Positions 18,223-30,470 of a DNA stretch of 32,618 bases are shown piece after piece; positions within the stretch are counted from its first letter, which is position 1, and every line of letters begins with the position of its first letter. A program made the position numbers and the translations under genes. This stretch comes from Anaerolinea thermophila (GTDB taxonomy: Bacteria > Chloroflexota > Anaerolineae > Anaerolineales > Villigracilaceae). Under the pieces are notes generated by a model that saw nothing but the letters and a program-made list of their open reading frames with translations, searched no databases and was not told the origin of the DNA. The stretch lies in contig DYKZ01000012.1 of the NCBI GenBank assembly GCA_020722345.1, positions 1 through 32,618 of the forward strand, given 5' to 3'.

Positions 18223-19827
18223 GTGGAAACACGAAGCAACTCGACACACGACAGCCCGGCATCCGGATCGGGCGCTGAGCCGACGCCGCTTTCAGCGGAC
18301 GGTCTGGTGCTCGTTCCTCTGGCAGCAGCCGCGGCCTTGGACCCGTCCGTGTTCAGCAAGGTCAACGCCTCCGAAGCGATCCCGGCCTCCTGGGAGGACC
18401 GGGCGCGCAAGGCCTGGGAGTACTACCTCGAAGAGCCGCTGGTGAAGAACTGCGTCAACTCGTGGCGCACCTTCGCCGTGGGCGAAGAGATCAAGATCGC
18501 GGGCGATGACGAGAAGGTGAAGTGGGAGGCCGTGGATGTCGCCGAGCGCCTGAGCGTCTCCAAGTTTGTCAAGGACATGATTCTCCAACTCCTGGTCAAA
18601 GGCGACGCCGTCGGATTCAAACGCTACACCAAGGACGGCAAGGACCTGGAGGAACTGGTCTGCGTCAACCCGGTTTCGGTCAAGGTCAAGTACGCCCAAG
18701 GGCGGCTCGTCGAAGCCCGGCAGACGCCGGAAGACAATCCCGCCGCGGACGAGGGGCTGGACCTTCCCGTGGAGCAGGTGCTCCACCTCAAGTGGGACGC
18801 GCCGGCCTTCTCGCCACGGGGCAACTCGCTCGTCCTTCCCGCGTTCCAGTCCATCGAACTCCTCCGCGATTACCGCCGGGCCGAACAGGCCATCGCCAAG
18901 CGCTGGGCCACGCCTTTCAGGCTTCTCAAAGTCGGCGGCGCGTTCGGCCAGAAGATGGTCATGCCCGACCAGAAGATGCTCGAACAGGTTCGGGACATGG
19001 TCAACAAGATGGACCTCAAAAGCGGCTTGGTCGTCCCCTTCTACGTCACGGTCGAGACCCACGGCACCGAGGGGCAGGTCCTCAACGTCGAGGACAAGGT
19101 CGAGGAAGTGAAGGAGGACATCGTCGTGGCGCTCGGCCTCTCGCGGTCGCTGGTGACCGGGGACGGCCCGAACTTCGCCACGGCATCGGTGAGTCTTCAG
19201 AAGATGCTGGTGATGATCCGGGAGATCAAGCAGGCCGCCCGGATCATCCTGAACTGGATATTCAACGACTGGCTGGAGCTCAAAGGCTGGGAAGACAAGA
19301 CGCTCCAGTTCCTGTTCAACGACCTCGATCCCTCGGACGCGGTCGATTTCAAGCGCCTGCTCATCGAGCTCTATGACCGCAAGCTCATCAGCCGTTCGAG
19401 CCTGCAACTGAAGATGGACCTCGACCCTGACATCGAGGCCGCCAACCGGGAAACCGAGAAGCGCTCGGTGGACATGCTCGACGAAAAGCAGATCAAGCCC
19501 ATCGTCGATATGGTGACGGCCGGGATCATGGGCGTCGAGACGGCGCAGGAGATGCTCGGCCTCGACCCGGCGAAGAACCCGGCTGGGAGCCGCGCCGAGG
19601 CATCGTGGGCCGGACCGTTCGCCCGAGCAAGCGTCGCCGCCGTCTGTGATGACTGCGCGCATTTCGACGGCGATCTCAACCACTGCCGGGTCCAACGAAA
19701 CGAAACCACCTTCGATACCCCGGTCTGCCGTTTCTTCGACCCTAAGACCGCTGCGATGGAACGCGGCTCCGACCGGGAAAAGGAACCGACGTCCCGGCAG
19801 GCGGCGTGCCGGGAGTGCGGGGGATGA
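18223..19827 (+). CDS. phage portal protein with C-terminal Cys-rich extension
   Basis: Portal-like core (VEQVLHLKWDAPAFSPRGNSLVLPAFQSIELLRDYRRAEQAIAKRWATPFRLLKVG); GTG start after GAGAGGA; between terminase and MuF genes. Confidence 0.8.
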   Translation: METRSNSTHDSPASGSGAEPTPLSADGLVLVPLAAAAALDPSVFSKVNASEAIPASWEDRARKAWEYYLEEPLVKNCVNSWRTFAVGEEIKIAGDDEKVKWEAVDVAERLSVSKFVKDMILQLLVKGDAVGFKRYTKDGKDLEELVCVNPVSVKVKYAQGRLVEARQTPEDNPAADEGLDLPVEQVLHLKWDAPAFSPRGNSLVLPAFQSIELLRDYRRAEQAIAKRWATPFRLLKVGGAFGQKMVMPDQKMLEQVRDMVNKMDLKSGLVVPFYVTVETHGTEGQVLNVEDKVEEVKEDIVVALGLSRSLVTGDGPNFATASVSLQKMLVMIREIKQAARIILNWIFNDWLELKGWEDKTLQFLFNDLDPSDAVDFKRLLIELYDRKLISRSSLQLKMDLDPDIEAANRETEKRSVDMLDEKQIKPIVDMVTAGIMGVETAQEMLGLDPAKNPAGSRAEASWAGPFARASVAAVCDDCAHFDGDLNHCRVQRNETTFDTPVCRFFDPKTAAMERGSDREKEPTSRQAACRECGG

Positions 19828-25345: not shown

Positions 25346-28300
25346 ATGGAGCTTTTCGCAACCGACCGTGAACGGCTGGCGTTCCTCCTCGAAACGGACG
25401 CCGCCCTGGACCTGGACTTCGAGGCGCTCGAGGCCCAGGCCGAGGCGGCTGCCGAGGAGCCGTCGCCGGAAGAGCGGCCTAAATACATCACCAACTACAT
25501 CGGCTCGAAGCAGAAGCTGGTCGACTGGATTTGGAAACACACGCCGGAGGGGGTGGAATCCGCGGCCGACGCCTTCTCTGGTTCGGCGGTCGTGGCCTAC
25601 ATGTACAAGACCAAGGGCCTGCGGGTCCTGGCCAACGACCGGCTGCGCTACTGCCACCACGCGGCCCGGGCGATCATCGAAAACGACAAGGTGCGTCTCT
25701 CCGATGAGGACCTGGAGGCGCTGCTCGCGGACAACGCGAAGGCGGGCACCTTCGTCCGGGACAACTTCAAGGGCATCTTCTTCGCCAAGGGCGTCCACGG
25801 CCTGATCGACACGATCCGGTCGAACATCGACAAACTCTCGGGTTTCAAGAAAGACATCGCTCTCTTCGCCCTGGGCAAGACCTGCATGTCCGGCAAGGGC
25901 GGCTTCGGGCATTTCTCGTCGTCGACCCGATACGGCAAGCGCGAGGACACCCCGGAGGAATTCAAGGAGCGGCTGCGCAAGAACGTGGCCCGCATCAACG
26001 CCCTCGTTTTCGACAACGGCAAGGAGTGCAAGGCATCCCGCAAGGACATCAACGACTTCCTGCCGGAGGCCAAGGCCGACCTCGCCTATTTCGATCCGCC
26101 TTACGCCACGGAGTTTTCGACCACCAACTACGAGAAATCCTACCACTTCGTGGAAGGACTGATGACCTATTGGGAGGGGCTGACCCTTGTCGAAGACTCC
26201 AAGACCAAACACTACGAGACCGACCACAAGACCGTGACCCGCGCCAACGCCGCGGAGTTCTTCGAGTCCTTCCTCGGCAATGCCAAGCACTTCCCGCACT
26301 GGCTCATTTCCTACCGGGACCATGCCTATCCGAACGAATCGGAAATGCGGCGGATCATCGCCTCCCTGGGACGGGATTCGTCGATGCGCTCCCACGATCA
26401 CCATTACGCCATCACATCCCGGCACGGCGAGGCGTCCCACGCCAAGGAACGTCTGTTCATCTGCCGCAGAGCCGAGGGCGCGGAGCGGTCCGCCAAGGCG
26501 TCCACAGAGGACAGCCTGCGGGCGGAAGCCGTCTGGGAGGAAACCGAGAATGAGGTCCGCTACCGCGTCTGGAACCCGGACGAGTTCGAACCCGACAGCT
26601 TCCGCCGCAAGCCCCTGGAGGGCGTCGAAGGAGTGGCGATCATCATCGGGCGATTGAAGAAGGAGTTCGTGCCCGAAGGCGGCAATTCGCGCTCCATGGT
26701 GCTGCAGGCCTACCGGTTCGTCCGCAAGACGGAGAAGAACCCGGACGGCTGGACCATGGAAAAAGCCAAGGAGTGGATCGACAAGCACGAAGCCGGACGG
26801 GCCGTGGATGCCGCCCTGCGCGTGGAGGAGAACCTGATCGCTCTGGCGGATGCGCCGCTGGGCGAATCGCTGGACCTCTTGAGCTGCCAGGCCGGGAAAG
26901 CGGAATCGGTCCGCGTCACCGGTTTCATGGGCAGCAAGTACCTGATGCTCGGCTGGATCGAAAGCCATGTCCCCAAGGACGCGGAGAGCATCCTCGATGC
27001 TTTTTCAGGCGGGGCCAACGTCGCCTATCACTTCAAACGCAAAGGGCTGAAAGTCATCGCCAACGATCTCCTGCGGTATCCCCACCATCTGGCGCGGGCC
27101 GTGGTGGAGAACTCCAGCGAGACTCTGAGCGACGAGGACGTGGACCGAATCCTCGCCCCCAATGCGGACGCGGGCACCTTTATCGTCGATCACTTCTACG
27201 GCTACTACTACACCAAGCCGGTGCTCCGGTGGCTCGACCAAGTCTGGGCGAACATCCAGAAACTTCACGGCTACAAGAAAGATCTGGCGCTGGCCGCGCT
27301 CGGCACCACCGTCAAGGCGAAGAGCGCCTTCGGTCAGTTCTCGCGGTCCAAGATGCACCGCAAGGCAGACCTCGACACGGATGCCAGCCTGGAGCAATCC
27401 CAGCTCTCCAATCCGCCGCTGTCCAAGTTCATCGAGTCGTTCCGGCGCTCGGTGGGCCAGCTCAACCGGCTCGTCTTCGACAACGGCAAAGAGTGCAAGG
27501 CCTTCAACCTGGATGCGGCCGAAGCGGTCCGGCGGTTCGGCGCGGACGTTCTGTATCTGGACCCGCCCTACGTCACCGAGTTCGGCAGCAACGATTACGA
27601 GGACTCCCTGCATTTCATCGAGGGTCTCATGACCCGCTGGGCGGACAAGAAACTCCAGGACAATCCCCGCCGCAACTATCCGTCCCGGACGCGTTACACC
27701 AAGGAATCGATCCGTTCCCTCATGGAAACATTGGCGGCCGACGCCCGGGGCAAATACGGCACGGTGCTCCTCTCGTACCGCGACCGGGCTTTCCCGCGGG
27801 AAGAGGAAATCAAGGAGATATTCGCCGAGCACTACGGTCTCGTCCGTGTCCGCGGCATGGAAGTGGACTACAACATCGCCAAGGACATCGGCCGGGAAGG
27901 CAAACACGCGCGGGAGTTGCTCTTCGTCGCCTCCAAATCACGCGGTGCGGCGCGCTCCAAGGCCGACACACAGACGCCGGCGGCATGTCACACCTCGTTT
28001 CCGGTAGATCTGTCGTTCGATGCGTTCACGCGACTTCAGACCGAAGCGGCGGCATTGGACCAGGCCGCGGGCGATCCGCAGTTCACCTTCATCCTCTGCC
28101 GGGCCGGCACGAACAAGAACGGCGACCACTTCACCCCAGACGAACTGGCCGCCCGCTACATGACGGCGGTCAACAAGAAGATCGACCTGAAGCATTCCCA
28201 GGATTTCACCGACATCGTCGGCGGCATCGTGGGGGCGGATTACGTGGAGGACGAAAGCGGCGGCCGGATCGAGTGCGCGGGGGAACTCTATGTCTCCGAC

Positions 28301-29209
28301 AGCCCGCACGCGCAGTTGGCCTACAAGCTCATCCGCAAAGGGATCATCTCCCAGGTCTCCATGGAATGCGACTACGAGGAAGGCGAGTGCTCGGTCTGCG
28401 GCAAACGTGTCGTTTCGAAGAGCGATTACTGCGTCCACCTACGCAAGAACAAGGGCGGCGAGCTCCAGGGGCAGCCCGTCTACGAAATCCTCCACGGCGT
28501 CACTTTCACCGGGCTCGGGCTCCTCGACCGCAAAGGCGCGGACGAAAACGCCCGCATCCTGAAAGTCGCCGCGGCGGAAAACGATGGTTCGACAACCCAC
28601 TCTGAAGGAGGTCCGACAATGGACGAGAAACAAAAGGATACCGAGGAACGGGCGGCGGAAGCCGCCAAGAAGAAGGATGACGGCGGCGGCGGGACCGCGC
28701 CCGATGACAAGACCCGGCTCAAGGAGTTGGAGCGGGAGAACAAGGAACTCAAACAGCAGGTTCTCGCGCTGCAGAAGCAGCTCGAGGAACTGGAGGCGGA
28801 GAAAAAGGCCGCCGCGAACCGGAGCCGGGCCCAGAAGCTTCTGCGCAAGATCGAGAAAAACGGCCTGACCTTCGAGTCCGACGAGGAGCGCGAGCAGGAG
28901 CTGAGCCGACTGGCCGGTCTTTCCGACGACGCCTTCGCCGCCAGCGAAGCCGCTTTCGAGCGGATGCTGAAGGCCGGTTCCCGCGGGCACCCCGAGGACA
29001 AGGACGCGAAGGACCGAGGAACGGGTGCGGAAACCGCGCAGGCTTCATCCAGGGGCGACGATCCGCCCCTTCGCAGCGACGCGGGCGTCCGTCCGAAGGA
29101 CGTGGAAGACAAAAAGACGAGTCTCGAGGACCGGCTGAAGAGCGGCTTCATGGCCGCCTACCGGCAGCGAGTGGCGACGGAGACCGGCGAACCGGTTTCG
29201 ACCAACTGA
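25346..29209 (+). CDS. tandem D12-class adenine methyltransferases fused to XkdF-like domain, prohead protease and scaffold
   Basis: YIGSKQKLVDWIW/AYFDPPYAT and FMGSKYLMLGWIE/LYLDPPYVT (two MTases); WNPDEFEPDSFRRKPL...DGWTMEKAKEWIDKH; FILCRAGTNKNGDHFTPDEL...protease-like; C-terminal coiled coil. Confidence 0.8.
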   Translation: MELFATDRERLAFLLETDAALDLDFEALEAQAEAAAEEPSPEERPKYITNYIGSKQKLVDWIWKHTPEGVESAADAFSGSAVVAYMYKTKGLRVLANDRLRYCHHAARAIIENDKVRLSDEDLEALLADNAKAGTFVRDNFKGIFFAKGVHGLIDTIRSNIDKLSGFKKDIALFALGKTCMSGKGGFGHFSSSTRYGKREDTPEEFKERLRKNVARINALVFDNGKECKASRKDINDFLPEAKADLAYFDPPYATEFSTTNYEKSYHFVEGLMTYWEGLTLVEDSKTKHYETDHKTVTRANAAEFFESFLGNAKHFPHWLISYRDHAYPNESEMRRIIASLGRDSSMRSHDHHYAITSRHGEASHAKERLFICRRAEGAERSAKASTEDSLRAEAVWEETENEVRYRVWNPDEFEPDSFRRKPLEGVEGVAIIIGRLKKEFVPEGGNSRSMVLQAYRFVRKTEKNPDGWTMEKAKEWIDKHEAGRAVDAALRVEENLIALADAPLGESLDLLSCQAGKAESVRVTGFMGSKYLMLGWIESHVPKDAESILDAFSGGANVAYHFKRKGLKVIANDLLRYPHHLARAVVENSSETLSDEDVDRILAPNADAGTFIVDHFYGYYYTKPVLRWLDQVWANIQKLHGYKKDLALAALGTTVKAKSAFGQFSRSKMHRKADLDTDASLEQSQLSNPPLSKFIESFRRSVGQLNRLVFDNGKECKAFNLDAAEAVRRFGADVLYLDPPYVTEFGSNDYEDSLHFIEGLMTRWADKKLQDNPRRNYPSRTRYTKESIRSLMETLAADARGKYGTVLLSYRDRAFPREEEIKEIFAEHYGLVRVRGMEVDYNIAKDIGREGKHARELLFVASKSRGAARSKADTQTPAACHTSFPVDLSFDAFTRLQTEAAALDQAAGDPQFTFILCRAGTNKNGDHFTPDELAARYMTAVNKKIDLKHSQDFTDIVGGIVGADYVEDESGGRIECAGELYVSDSPHAQLAYKLIRKGIISQVSMECDYEEGECSVCGKRVVSKSDYCVHLRKNKGGELQGQPVYEILHGVTFTGLGLLDRKGADENARILKVAAAENDGSTTHSEGGPTMDEKQKDTEERAAEAAKKKDDGGGGTAPDDKTRLKELERENKELKQQVLALQKQLEELEAEKKAAANRSRAQKLLRKIEKNGLTFESDEEREQELSRLAGLSDDAFAASEAAFERMLKAGSRGHPEDKDAKDRGTGAETAQASSRGDDPPLRSDAGVRPKDVEDKKTSLEDRLKSGFMAAYRQRVATETGEPVSTN
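28619..29209 (+). CDS. internal in-frame start for a capsid scaffold protein
   Basis: GAAGGAGG followed by ATG 28619 in the same frame; MDEKQKDTEERAAEAAKKK... coiled-coil. Confidence 0.5.
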   Translation: MDEKQKDTEERAAEAAKKKDDGGGGTAPDDKTRLKELERENKELKQQVLALQKQLEELEAEKKAAANRSRAQKLLRKIEKNGLTFESDEEREQELSRLAGLSDDAFAASEAAFERMLKAGSRGHPEDKDAKDRGTGAETAQASSRGDDPPLRSDAGVRPKDVEDKKTSLEDRLKSGFMAAYRQRVATETGEPVSTN

Positions 29210-29225
29210 CAAAGGAGGAATGACC

Positions 29226-29588
29226 ATGGCTTTCATCAATCCCAATCACCGGGGCCTCGCATACGGCGACGGCTACCTGCAGGGCGACGGCCAACTCGGC
29301 CAGGTGGTGAGGATCGTCGGCAACGACCTCTTCGCCGTGAACACCACGCCGACGGCCAAGTCCTTCGGCATTCTGATCAAGGACTACAAGAACGGAGAGA
29401 TGCCCGGCATCTACTGCATGGGCGGCGTCTACGAGACCGACGTCTTCGAAGGGACCGTGAATCCCGGCGACGACCTGAAGGTTTCGGCCAACGGCAAACT
29501 CACCGCGGGCGTGCAGGCGGGCGAGGAAGTCATCGCCCGGGCCGTCTCCGTCTCCGGCGGAACGATCAAGTTCCGGATGCTCATCTGA
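29226..29588 (+). CDS. putative head decoration protein
   Basis: Small protein between protease/scaffold and capsid genes; RBS AAGGAGGAATGACC. Confidence 0.6.
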   Translation: MAFINPNHRGLAYGDGYLQGDGQLGQVVRIVGNDLFAVNTTPTAKSFGILIKDYKNGEMPGIYCMGGVYETDVFEGTVNPGDDLKVSANGKLTAGVQAGEEVIARAVSVSGGTIKFRMLI

Positions 29589-29606: not shown

Positions 29607-30470
29607 ATGGAGACGATCCGCATGAACGTGCACAGCCAGGAATACATGGAGACGATGGCGCGCCTGATGTCCGAGGCGCTCGAGTCGCCCGAGGGGATGC
29701 GCGCGCTGGCCGCGGCCATCTCCGAGCCCATCGAACAGGAAATCAAACGCAAGGAGATCTCTTCGCTCCTGCTCACCAAGCATACTCTTCCCAAGGGCGA
29801 GCGTCCTCTCTACCAGAAGAAGCCCAAAGTGAAGGCCTACTGGATTTCCACCGAGGGCGAGGCTCAGGAGCAGGAAGTCGGCAAGGACGAAGTGGAGTTT
29901 CCCACCAACCGCATCCACTCCGCGCCCATGGTCGACGTTTCGGTGCTCAAGAACGGCAACATCGGCACCCTGATGGACATCCAGACCTCGGCCGCGGACG
30001 AAATCCGCAAGGAGATCGACAAGCGGACCATTACGGTGCTTTCGGCGGCGGTTCCCGCGGCCAACACCGTGGAGGTGACCGGCGCGACCCTCACCGAGGA
30101 GGCGCTCAACGAGGCGATCTCCATCATCGAAGACCTCGAGTTGACGGTGAAGTACATCGTCATGAGGGGCCGGCGTTTCAATGACCTGCGGGGCTGGAAC
30201 CTCGACCCGGAAACCAAAGCCGAACTGCGGGCCAAGGGCGTCATCAAGAACTACGGGACCGGCGGCATTCTGCTGACCGCCGCGCAGGCCATCGACGAGG
30301 TGCTGCTCATCCCCGACGAGGAAGTGGGCAAGTTGCCGGTGCGCGAAAACCTCAAGACCGAAGCCATCGAGCAGAAGACGCGCTTCAAGACGGGCTGGCT
30401 CGTCTGGTCGGAACTGGGGCAAGGCATCACCCGCCCGGACATTCTCGCCAAGATCAAGATTCTCGGCTGA
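29607..30470 (+). CDS. phage major capsid protein
   Basis: Order protease-scaffold-decoration-capsid; capsid-like composition and architecture; AGGAGG RBS. Confidence 0.7.
   Translation: METIRMNVHSQEYMETMARLMSEALESPEGMRALAAAISEPIEQEIKRKEISSLLLTKHTLPKGERPLYQKKPKVKAYWISTEGEAQEQEVGKDEVEFPTNRIHSAPMVDVSVLKNGNIGTLMDIQTSAADEIRKEIDKRTITVLSAAVPAANTVEVTGATLTEEALNEAISIIEDLELTVKYIVMRGRRFNDLRGWNLDPETKAELRAKGVIKNYGTGGILLTAAQAIDEVLLIPDEEVGKLPVRENLKTEAIEQKTRFKTGWLVWSELGQGITRPDILAKIKILG

Follow-up and report, generated by a model that had tools for sequence, protein, structure and literature searches.

How phages load enzymes into their heads and meter them is known in few cases, namely the T4 internal proteins, the P1 Dar system and the N4 RNA polymerase. 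Here we describe a gene in a 32,618-nucleotide stretch of DNA from Anaerolinea thermophila (contig DYKZ01000012.1; hereafter the window), whose 1287-amino-acid (aa) product joins two D12-class adenine methyltransferases (MTases) to a prohead protease and a scaffold. In lambda C/Nu3 and herpesvirus UL26/UL26.5, a free scaffold is produced from an internal in-frame start. Both have the protease on the N side and the scaffold on the C side, as in the fusion, and the assemblin-like fold is shared, but neither has enzyme cargo ahead of the protease. The roles of lambda C and Nu3 have been described (PMC3224144).

The P1 Dar system (DarB, DarA, Hdf, Ulx, DdrA and DdrB) likewise places a DNA-modifying anti-restriction protein in a myophage head (PMC9024508; PMC5512222), and packaging of DarB depends on an N-terminal signal, after which the protein is believed to pass into the cell (PMC9024508). 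However, DarB is a 250 kDa methylase-SWI2/SNF2 helicase encoded apart from the protease, P1 Pro being a separate protein of 36.8 kDa, whereas the fusion has D12 type II-like MTases within the protease-scaffold itself; Pfam and PHROG searches for the DarB-type dyad found no helicase domain in the 1287-aa protein. The internal or ejection proteins of T4 and SPN3US are head-targeted and lose their propeptides to the prohead protease at motifs with an acidic P1 residue (A-X-E in SPN3US, PMC10052503), and T4 IPIII has a capsid-targeting N-terminus (cited in PMC9024508). Their cargo is encoded by separate genes, whereas that of the fusion lies in cis to the protease. Polyvalent proteins carry several unrelated enzymatic domains per polypeptide, are encoded among head genes and are inferred to be packaged and injected, and the hub domains of their network include adenine methylase and MuF (Iyer et al. 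2017, PMC5512222). The fusion has at least two unrelated domains and is encoded among virion genes, as these proteins are, but the retrieved text of PMC5512222 contains no protease-scaffold fusion, nested scaffold start or D12-class enzymes. We found no description of a prohead or head-maturation protease fused to an MTase in the open-access literature, and no full relative of the fusion by sequence search of GenBank phages and the PDB. Each half is already known, as Dar-type virion cargo and lambda-type protease-scaffold; their union, of which we found no account, appears new.

The polyprotein is encoded by one intact frame in the window, as the original prediction had claimed, without a frame error. 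Scans of IMG/VR and of GTDB genomes gave 80 and 52 loci (numbered below with the prefix L), and after further scans the family comprised 96 distinct intact fusion proteins, many metagenomes being represented. The fusion is also present in the complete isolate chromosomes of Desulfosarcina alkanivorans and D. widdelii (L092, L093). The finished chromosome of D. alkanivorans PL12 holds two copies about 85 kb apart, L092 and L102 (300920-304771 and 389133-391508), one with two MTases and one with a single MTase; Desulfobulbus rhabdoformis has a single-MTase relative. Proteins 97-98% identical to that of the window occur in metagenome-assembled genomes (MAGs) assigned to Phycisphaerae, Ozemobacter, Desulfatitalea and Propionivibrio and on a 2.6 Mb Desulfobacterium scaffold (L082, L083, L084, L085, L087), so that either the hosts are very diverse or the bins are contaminated.

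Both MTases bear the marks of the D12 class: a D12 profile (Pfam match in the polyprotein, 149.6 bits, E 1.7e-43, cut-off 22), the S-adenosylmethionine motif (FxG), DPPY and a Dam-like fold, for which the top match was E. coli Dam (4rtj, E 7.9e-8). The two had been described as paralogues sharing aligned blocks, and we indeed found 41% identity over 345 columns (E 2e-85). DPPY, noted near 26095 and 27570 in the original prediction, was located at residues 250 and 739 (window 26093 and 27560) and occurred in every MTase domain of 95 long open reading frames (ORFs) examined. In the family alignment, motif I, which binds the cofactor, and the Dam-type SYRD were invariant or nearly so in both MTases. 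The ratio of nonsynonymous to synonymous substitution rates (dN/dS) was 0.02-0.15 for MTase 1, 0.03-0.10 for MTase 2, 0.01-0.09 for the protease and 0.04-0.31 for the scaffold; purifying selection on the MTases is thus about as strong as on the protease and mostly stronger than on the scaffold. Judged by their sequences, the fused MTases look active. The possibility that they are dead enzymes, or missing from relatives, was ruled out by their presence in relatives, the invariant motifs and the low dN/dS.

In PADLOC, both MTases matched models of type II methyltransferases, the best match lying in the second half of a 643-aa model, which points to type II MTase ancestry. The C-terminal half of tandem D12 type II MTases of the phi1605 SER90K_13 kind is related to MTase 1 (M1) as well as to MTase 2 (M2). 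The gene for this tandem protein, the nearest full annotated phage enzyme, neighbours a gene with a type IIs endonuclease annotation, and tandem D12 type II MTases next to a type IIs endonuclease also occur in FokI-type systems; for the fusion no endonuclease gene was seen alongside, and the partner is the head protease. M2 sequences form one clade in the MTase tree with support of 100/100, which fits an origin of MTase 2 by internal duplication; we regard this as likely only, because the outgroups are few and on very long branches. Two further MTase 1 relatives lie in other phage settings. In a Bacteroidales MAG, a solo MTase 1-type enzyme (L121:931-1962) precedes a terminase-like gene in a phage of another type and nests within the fused M1 group, as if it were escaped cargo. 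In a different, Mu-like phage contig, MTase 1 is followed by a truncated small domain (L021:9755-11671), either a recombinant or a chimeric assembly.

The gene also appears to contain a second gene. Directly before the coiled-coil domain it shows a complete start layout, AAGGAGGT followed by 6 nt and ATG (28605-28621), and the same arrangement with ATG, GTG or TTG was seen in most representatives. At least six bases complementary to the anti-Shine-Dalgarno sequence preceded an in-frame start in 36 of 45 representatives, compared with 18 of 1175 control windows (1.5%) taken from the same genes, and the internal Shine-Dalgarno (SD) site was better than the gene's own start site in 42/45. The amino acids around the internal start are hypervariable among relatives. 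The first Gly codon at the site was GGA in 21/23, against 15% of glycines in these genes, and in four representatives the SD lay in another codon phase; it is therefore the DNA that is conserved and not the peptide. The protease of L096, a prophage that is also damaged elsewhere, terminates at a stop codon immediately ahead of the site, where the intact scaffold is its own ORF with the same start. A strong SD and an in-frame start codon ahead of the coiled-coil scaffold imply a nested product, and a nested scaffold of the lambda C/Nu3 kind is strongly indicated by these sequence features.

The domain at residues 910-1076 had been read as protease-like. When it was modelled alone with AlphaFold2 (AF2), the predicted local distance difference test score (pLDDT) was mostly >90 in the core. 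In Foldseek, its top matches among solved structures included, at modest E-values, the herpesvirus assemblins 4v07 (E 7.7e-3, probability 1.00) and 1at3 (E 3.3e-2, 0.99), and the closest viral models were phage G gp19 (3.5e-17) and many prohead proteases, with 145 models at E<=0.001. The zinc ligands C1015, C1018, C1029 and H1031 were invariant in the family alignment, as was the catalytic-type residue H950, and S1005 was nearly so (at least 90%). The window protein scored 14.6 bits against the curated Pfam S78 cut-off of 21, and matches at E<=1 were obtained for 24/47 members (best E 0.0011). An assemblin/S78-type prohead protease is thus confirmed at the level of the modelled fold. Two phage proteins in BFVD named Ferritin/DPS and Dps (A0A6J5N5R9 and A0A6J5RFH1) also match the prohead protease fold, which suggests that fusions of prohead proteases with different cargo may exist in other phages.

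Residues 1-1190 were modelled with AF2 on 43 relatives. Folded blocks lay at about 45-376, 396-484, 525-865 and 910-1076, together with a helix at 1121-1171 that corresponds to the coiled coil of the scaffold part, and stretches of low confidence separated them (378-393, 484-521, 866-907 and 1076-1120). Because the overall confidence was moderate (pLDDT 74.5, predicted template-modelling score 0.39), the relative placement of the domains was not interpreted. The predicted order of MTase, intervening segment, MTase, protease-like domain with a zinc site and coiled-coil scaffold was borne out by Pfam, fold matches and AF2. The label "XkdF-like" for the intervening segment found no support: residues 396-484 had no PHROG family match at E<=0.05, no XkdF match was obtained with Pfam anywhere in the 1287-aa protein, and the XkdF-type fold is that of the protease itself. 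The segment (LK, about 90 aa) is instead a conserved folded domain without a recognised family, which has been gained, lost and moved among relatives.

The main architectures were M1-PR (38 proteins), M1-M2-PR (32) and M1-LK-M2-PR (26). Rare ones were M1-LK-PR (L069, L096) and LK-M2-LK-PR (L238), in which MTase 1 was lost, the N-terminal leader was kept and the LK domain occurred twice; the leader is a candidate capsid-targeting segment. Mapping the architectures onto the protease tree requires 11 changes of label, and MTase content has been gained and lost in a modular fashion. The single-MTase form is filed in PHROGs as phrog_27806, "DNA methyltransferase". A true cargo-less relative was sought among protease-only ORFs: L126 has flanks without capsid genes and is probably a remnant, and the others were contig ends or frame breaks.

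The disordered junctions between the domains share a motif, [LMI]x[STACN][EDQ]A, which occurred 191 times in 43 aligned proteins compared with 34 expected; it was never found in the protease, once in MTase 1 and 34 times in MTase 2. Expected counts for single sites were obtained by shuffling within each leader or junction. The motif was present in the leader (LETDA in the window) in 39/43 representatives against 4.0 expected, at the MTase 1/small-domain junction (LRAEA) in 15/43 against 0.9, at the small-domain/MTase 2 junction (LSCQA) in 18/32 against 3.0, and at the MTase 2/protease junction (LQTEA) in 30/43 against 2.5. The major capsid protein carries the same motif near its N-terminus (LMSEA), as it does in many relatives. 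The SPN3US prohead protease cleaves after A-X-E (PMC10052503), and the acidic residue of the motif would fit such a P1 position. The motif is a candidate self-cleavage site, although the enrichment is suggestive rather than a test because the motif was derived from these same junctions.

Table 1 Features of the fusion gene and the head operon in the window (residue numbers refer to the 1287-aa protein).
Feature	Position	Strand	Remarks
Full polyprotein ORF	25346..29209	+	ATG start, 1287 aa; leader, MTase 1, small domain, MTase 2, prohead protease, scaffold
N-terminal leader, residues 1-44	25346..25477	+	Conserved helix; candidate cleavage motif LETDA at 15-19
D12 adenine MTase 1, residues 45-376	25478..26473	+	Pfam D12, PADLOC type II MTase models, E. 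coli Dam fold; DPPY 26093-26104
Candidate cleavage motif LRAEA, 391-395	26516..26530	+	MTase 1/small-domain junction
Small folded domain LK, about 396-484	26531..26797	+	AF2 pLDDT mostly 64-87; presence varies by architecture
Candidate cleavage motif LSCQA, 512-516	26879..26893	+	Small-domain/MTase 2 junction
D12 adenine MTase 2, residues 524-872	26915..27961	+	Paralogue of MTase 1, invariant motifs; DPPY 27560-27571
Candidate cleavage motif LQTEA, 897-901	28034..28048	+	MTase 2/protease junction
Assemblin/S78-type prohead protease, about 910-1076	28073..28573	+	AF2, Foldseek, conservation, weak Pfam S78
Internal SD AAGGAGGT	28605..28612	+	6 nt ahead of in-frame ATG
Predicted nested scaffold gene, 196 aa, starts MDEKQKDTEERA	28619..29209	+	Internal start; coiled coil about 28706-28858
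Portal protein	18223..19827	+	phrog_2739 E 9.7e-64; Pfam Portal_Mu
MuF minor head protein, 1527 aa	19806..24389	+	MuF, SAP/Rho_N-like repeats, HipA-like piece
Downstream head decoration/cement-like protein	29220..29588	+	Weak Pfam and PHROG matches
Major capsid protein	29607..30470	+	phrog_2522 E 6.9e-87

The gene lies in a head operon. A decoration-like gene adjoins the fusion in 41/43 representatives and, counting loci with enough flank, the major capsid gene follows downstream in 41/41, with portal upstream in 22/24 and MuF in 27/28. With a 1527-aa MuF fusion upstream, it seems that two head proteins of these phages are multidomain, and the MuF fusion is likely a second injected effector. 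Its HipA-like kinase piece matched Pfam HipA_C at E 5.6e-4, below the cut-off. L061, L039 and L040 have a short MuF that lacks this kinase piece, and a PADLOC search with the MuF protein gave no match. In L096, tail proteins that look sheath-like by eye point to contractile tails.

From the conserved fusion, its constrained catalytic MTases, its head-operon position, its nested start signal and its modular MTase content, all of which can be seen in the sequences, we propose how the polyprotein may work. We infer that the first start would give a minor full-length polyprotein of MTase(s), protease and scaffold, while the strong internal start would give abundant free scaffold of about 190 aa. 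The scaffold domain common to both would draw the full-length protein into the procapsid alongside the free scaffold, so that the shell comes to enclose the protease together with the preceding MTases. There the mature protease may cut the disordered junctions at sites resembling [LMI]x[STACN][EDQ]A, destroy the scaffold and free the MTases in the head. The later steps are the least certain and are drawn by analogy with P1 DarB (PMC9024508) and polyvalent proteins (PMC5512222): the freed MTases would stay with the DNA, enter the next cell on ejection and there, in the manner suggested for DarB, methylate the incoming phage DNA with the new cell's S-adenosylmethionine before restriction enzymes cut it.

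The original prediction had offered in-head release, methylation coupled to packaging, or injection as explanations for enzymes within a head-assembly precursor. Of these we favour release and injection. The general idea of enzymes that travel in a head-assembly precursor and are then released and delivered is supported indirectly, by the nested start, the conserved adjacency to the major capsid gene, the motif-bearing disordered junctions and the modular MTases. As a whole, co-assembly, release by self-cleavage in the head and likely injection for DNA protection seem to us somewhat more probable than everything else taken together. Several points weigh against this reading. The cleavage motif was derived from the junctions on which it is tested, related sequences are not independent, and in as many as 14 relatives the pattern also falls within portions of MTase 2. 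Once free in the procapsid, the MTases could escape together with pieces of the scaffold instead of being injected, and the N-terminal leader is only a candidate capsid-retention signal. We found no virion proteomics, methylome or cleavage data for these phages.

The main rival is that the MTases act in the producing cell, methylating progeny DNA before or during packaging and then being lost from the particle, the fusion either bringing them to the procapsid during packaging or merely linking their expression to that of the head genes. S-adenosylmethionine is plentiful in the producing cell, the catalytic motifs are conserved and the gene sits in the head operon near portal and terminase, all of which this explanation would accommodate. 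A free-standing early gene, however, would methylate progeny DNA more simply, whereas the fusion is retained throughout the 96 proteins and only one clear solo M1-type copy was seen (L121, in another phage type); moreover, with the scaffold at the C-terminus, the domain order should bring the enzymes into the interior of the shell. That the fusion has been retained speaks against action in the producing cell, which we consider possible but clearly the less probable account. Alternatively, the MTase domains might be mainly DNA-binding or space-filling parts of an internal core whose catalysis is dispensable. Their fusion to an assembly protein and the freely varying number of MTase domains would suit such a role, but a mere spacer would not be expected to keep its catalytic and cofactor motifs invariant or to show dN/dS of 0.02-0.15, and we regard this role as improbable. 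Lastly, an assembly or annotation artefact joining separate genes, which the few relatives split by frameshifts or contig ends (L064, L071, L252) might bring to mind, is refuted, and its probability negligible, with the same in-frame fusion found in so many distinct proteins, metagenomes and finished isolate chromosomes.

In-head release followed by injection can be extended to a more general proposal, which in our judgement could equally well prove right or wrong: the protease-scaffold may be a modular cargo carrier, in which the ratio of full-length to nested product sets the dose, the carrier's own protease frees the cargo and the cargo is ejected with the genome, and two MTases may protect against more than one restriction specificity or on both strands of an asymmetric site.

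Our analysis shows that in a widespread group of tailed phages the protease-scaffold includes one or two DNA-methylating enzymes, which suggests that these enzymes are loaded as cargo and probably delivered with the DNA against restriction. Proteins filed as "DNA methyltransferase" (phrog_27806) may accordingly be head-assembly proteins. A single gene with a nested start encodes cargo, protease and scaffold, and its phages occur in numerous uncultured lineages as well as in cultivable sulfate reducers, making loading, cleavage and injection directly testable. If the proposal is true, the fusion would be a self-contained natural design for packing enzymes into a capsid and an anti-restriction route that acts at the moment of entry.

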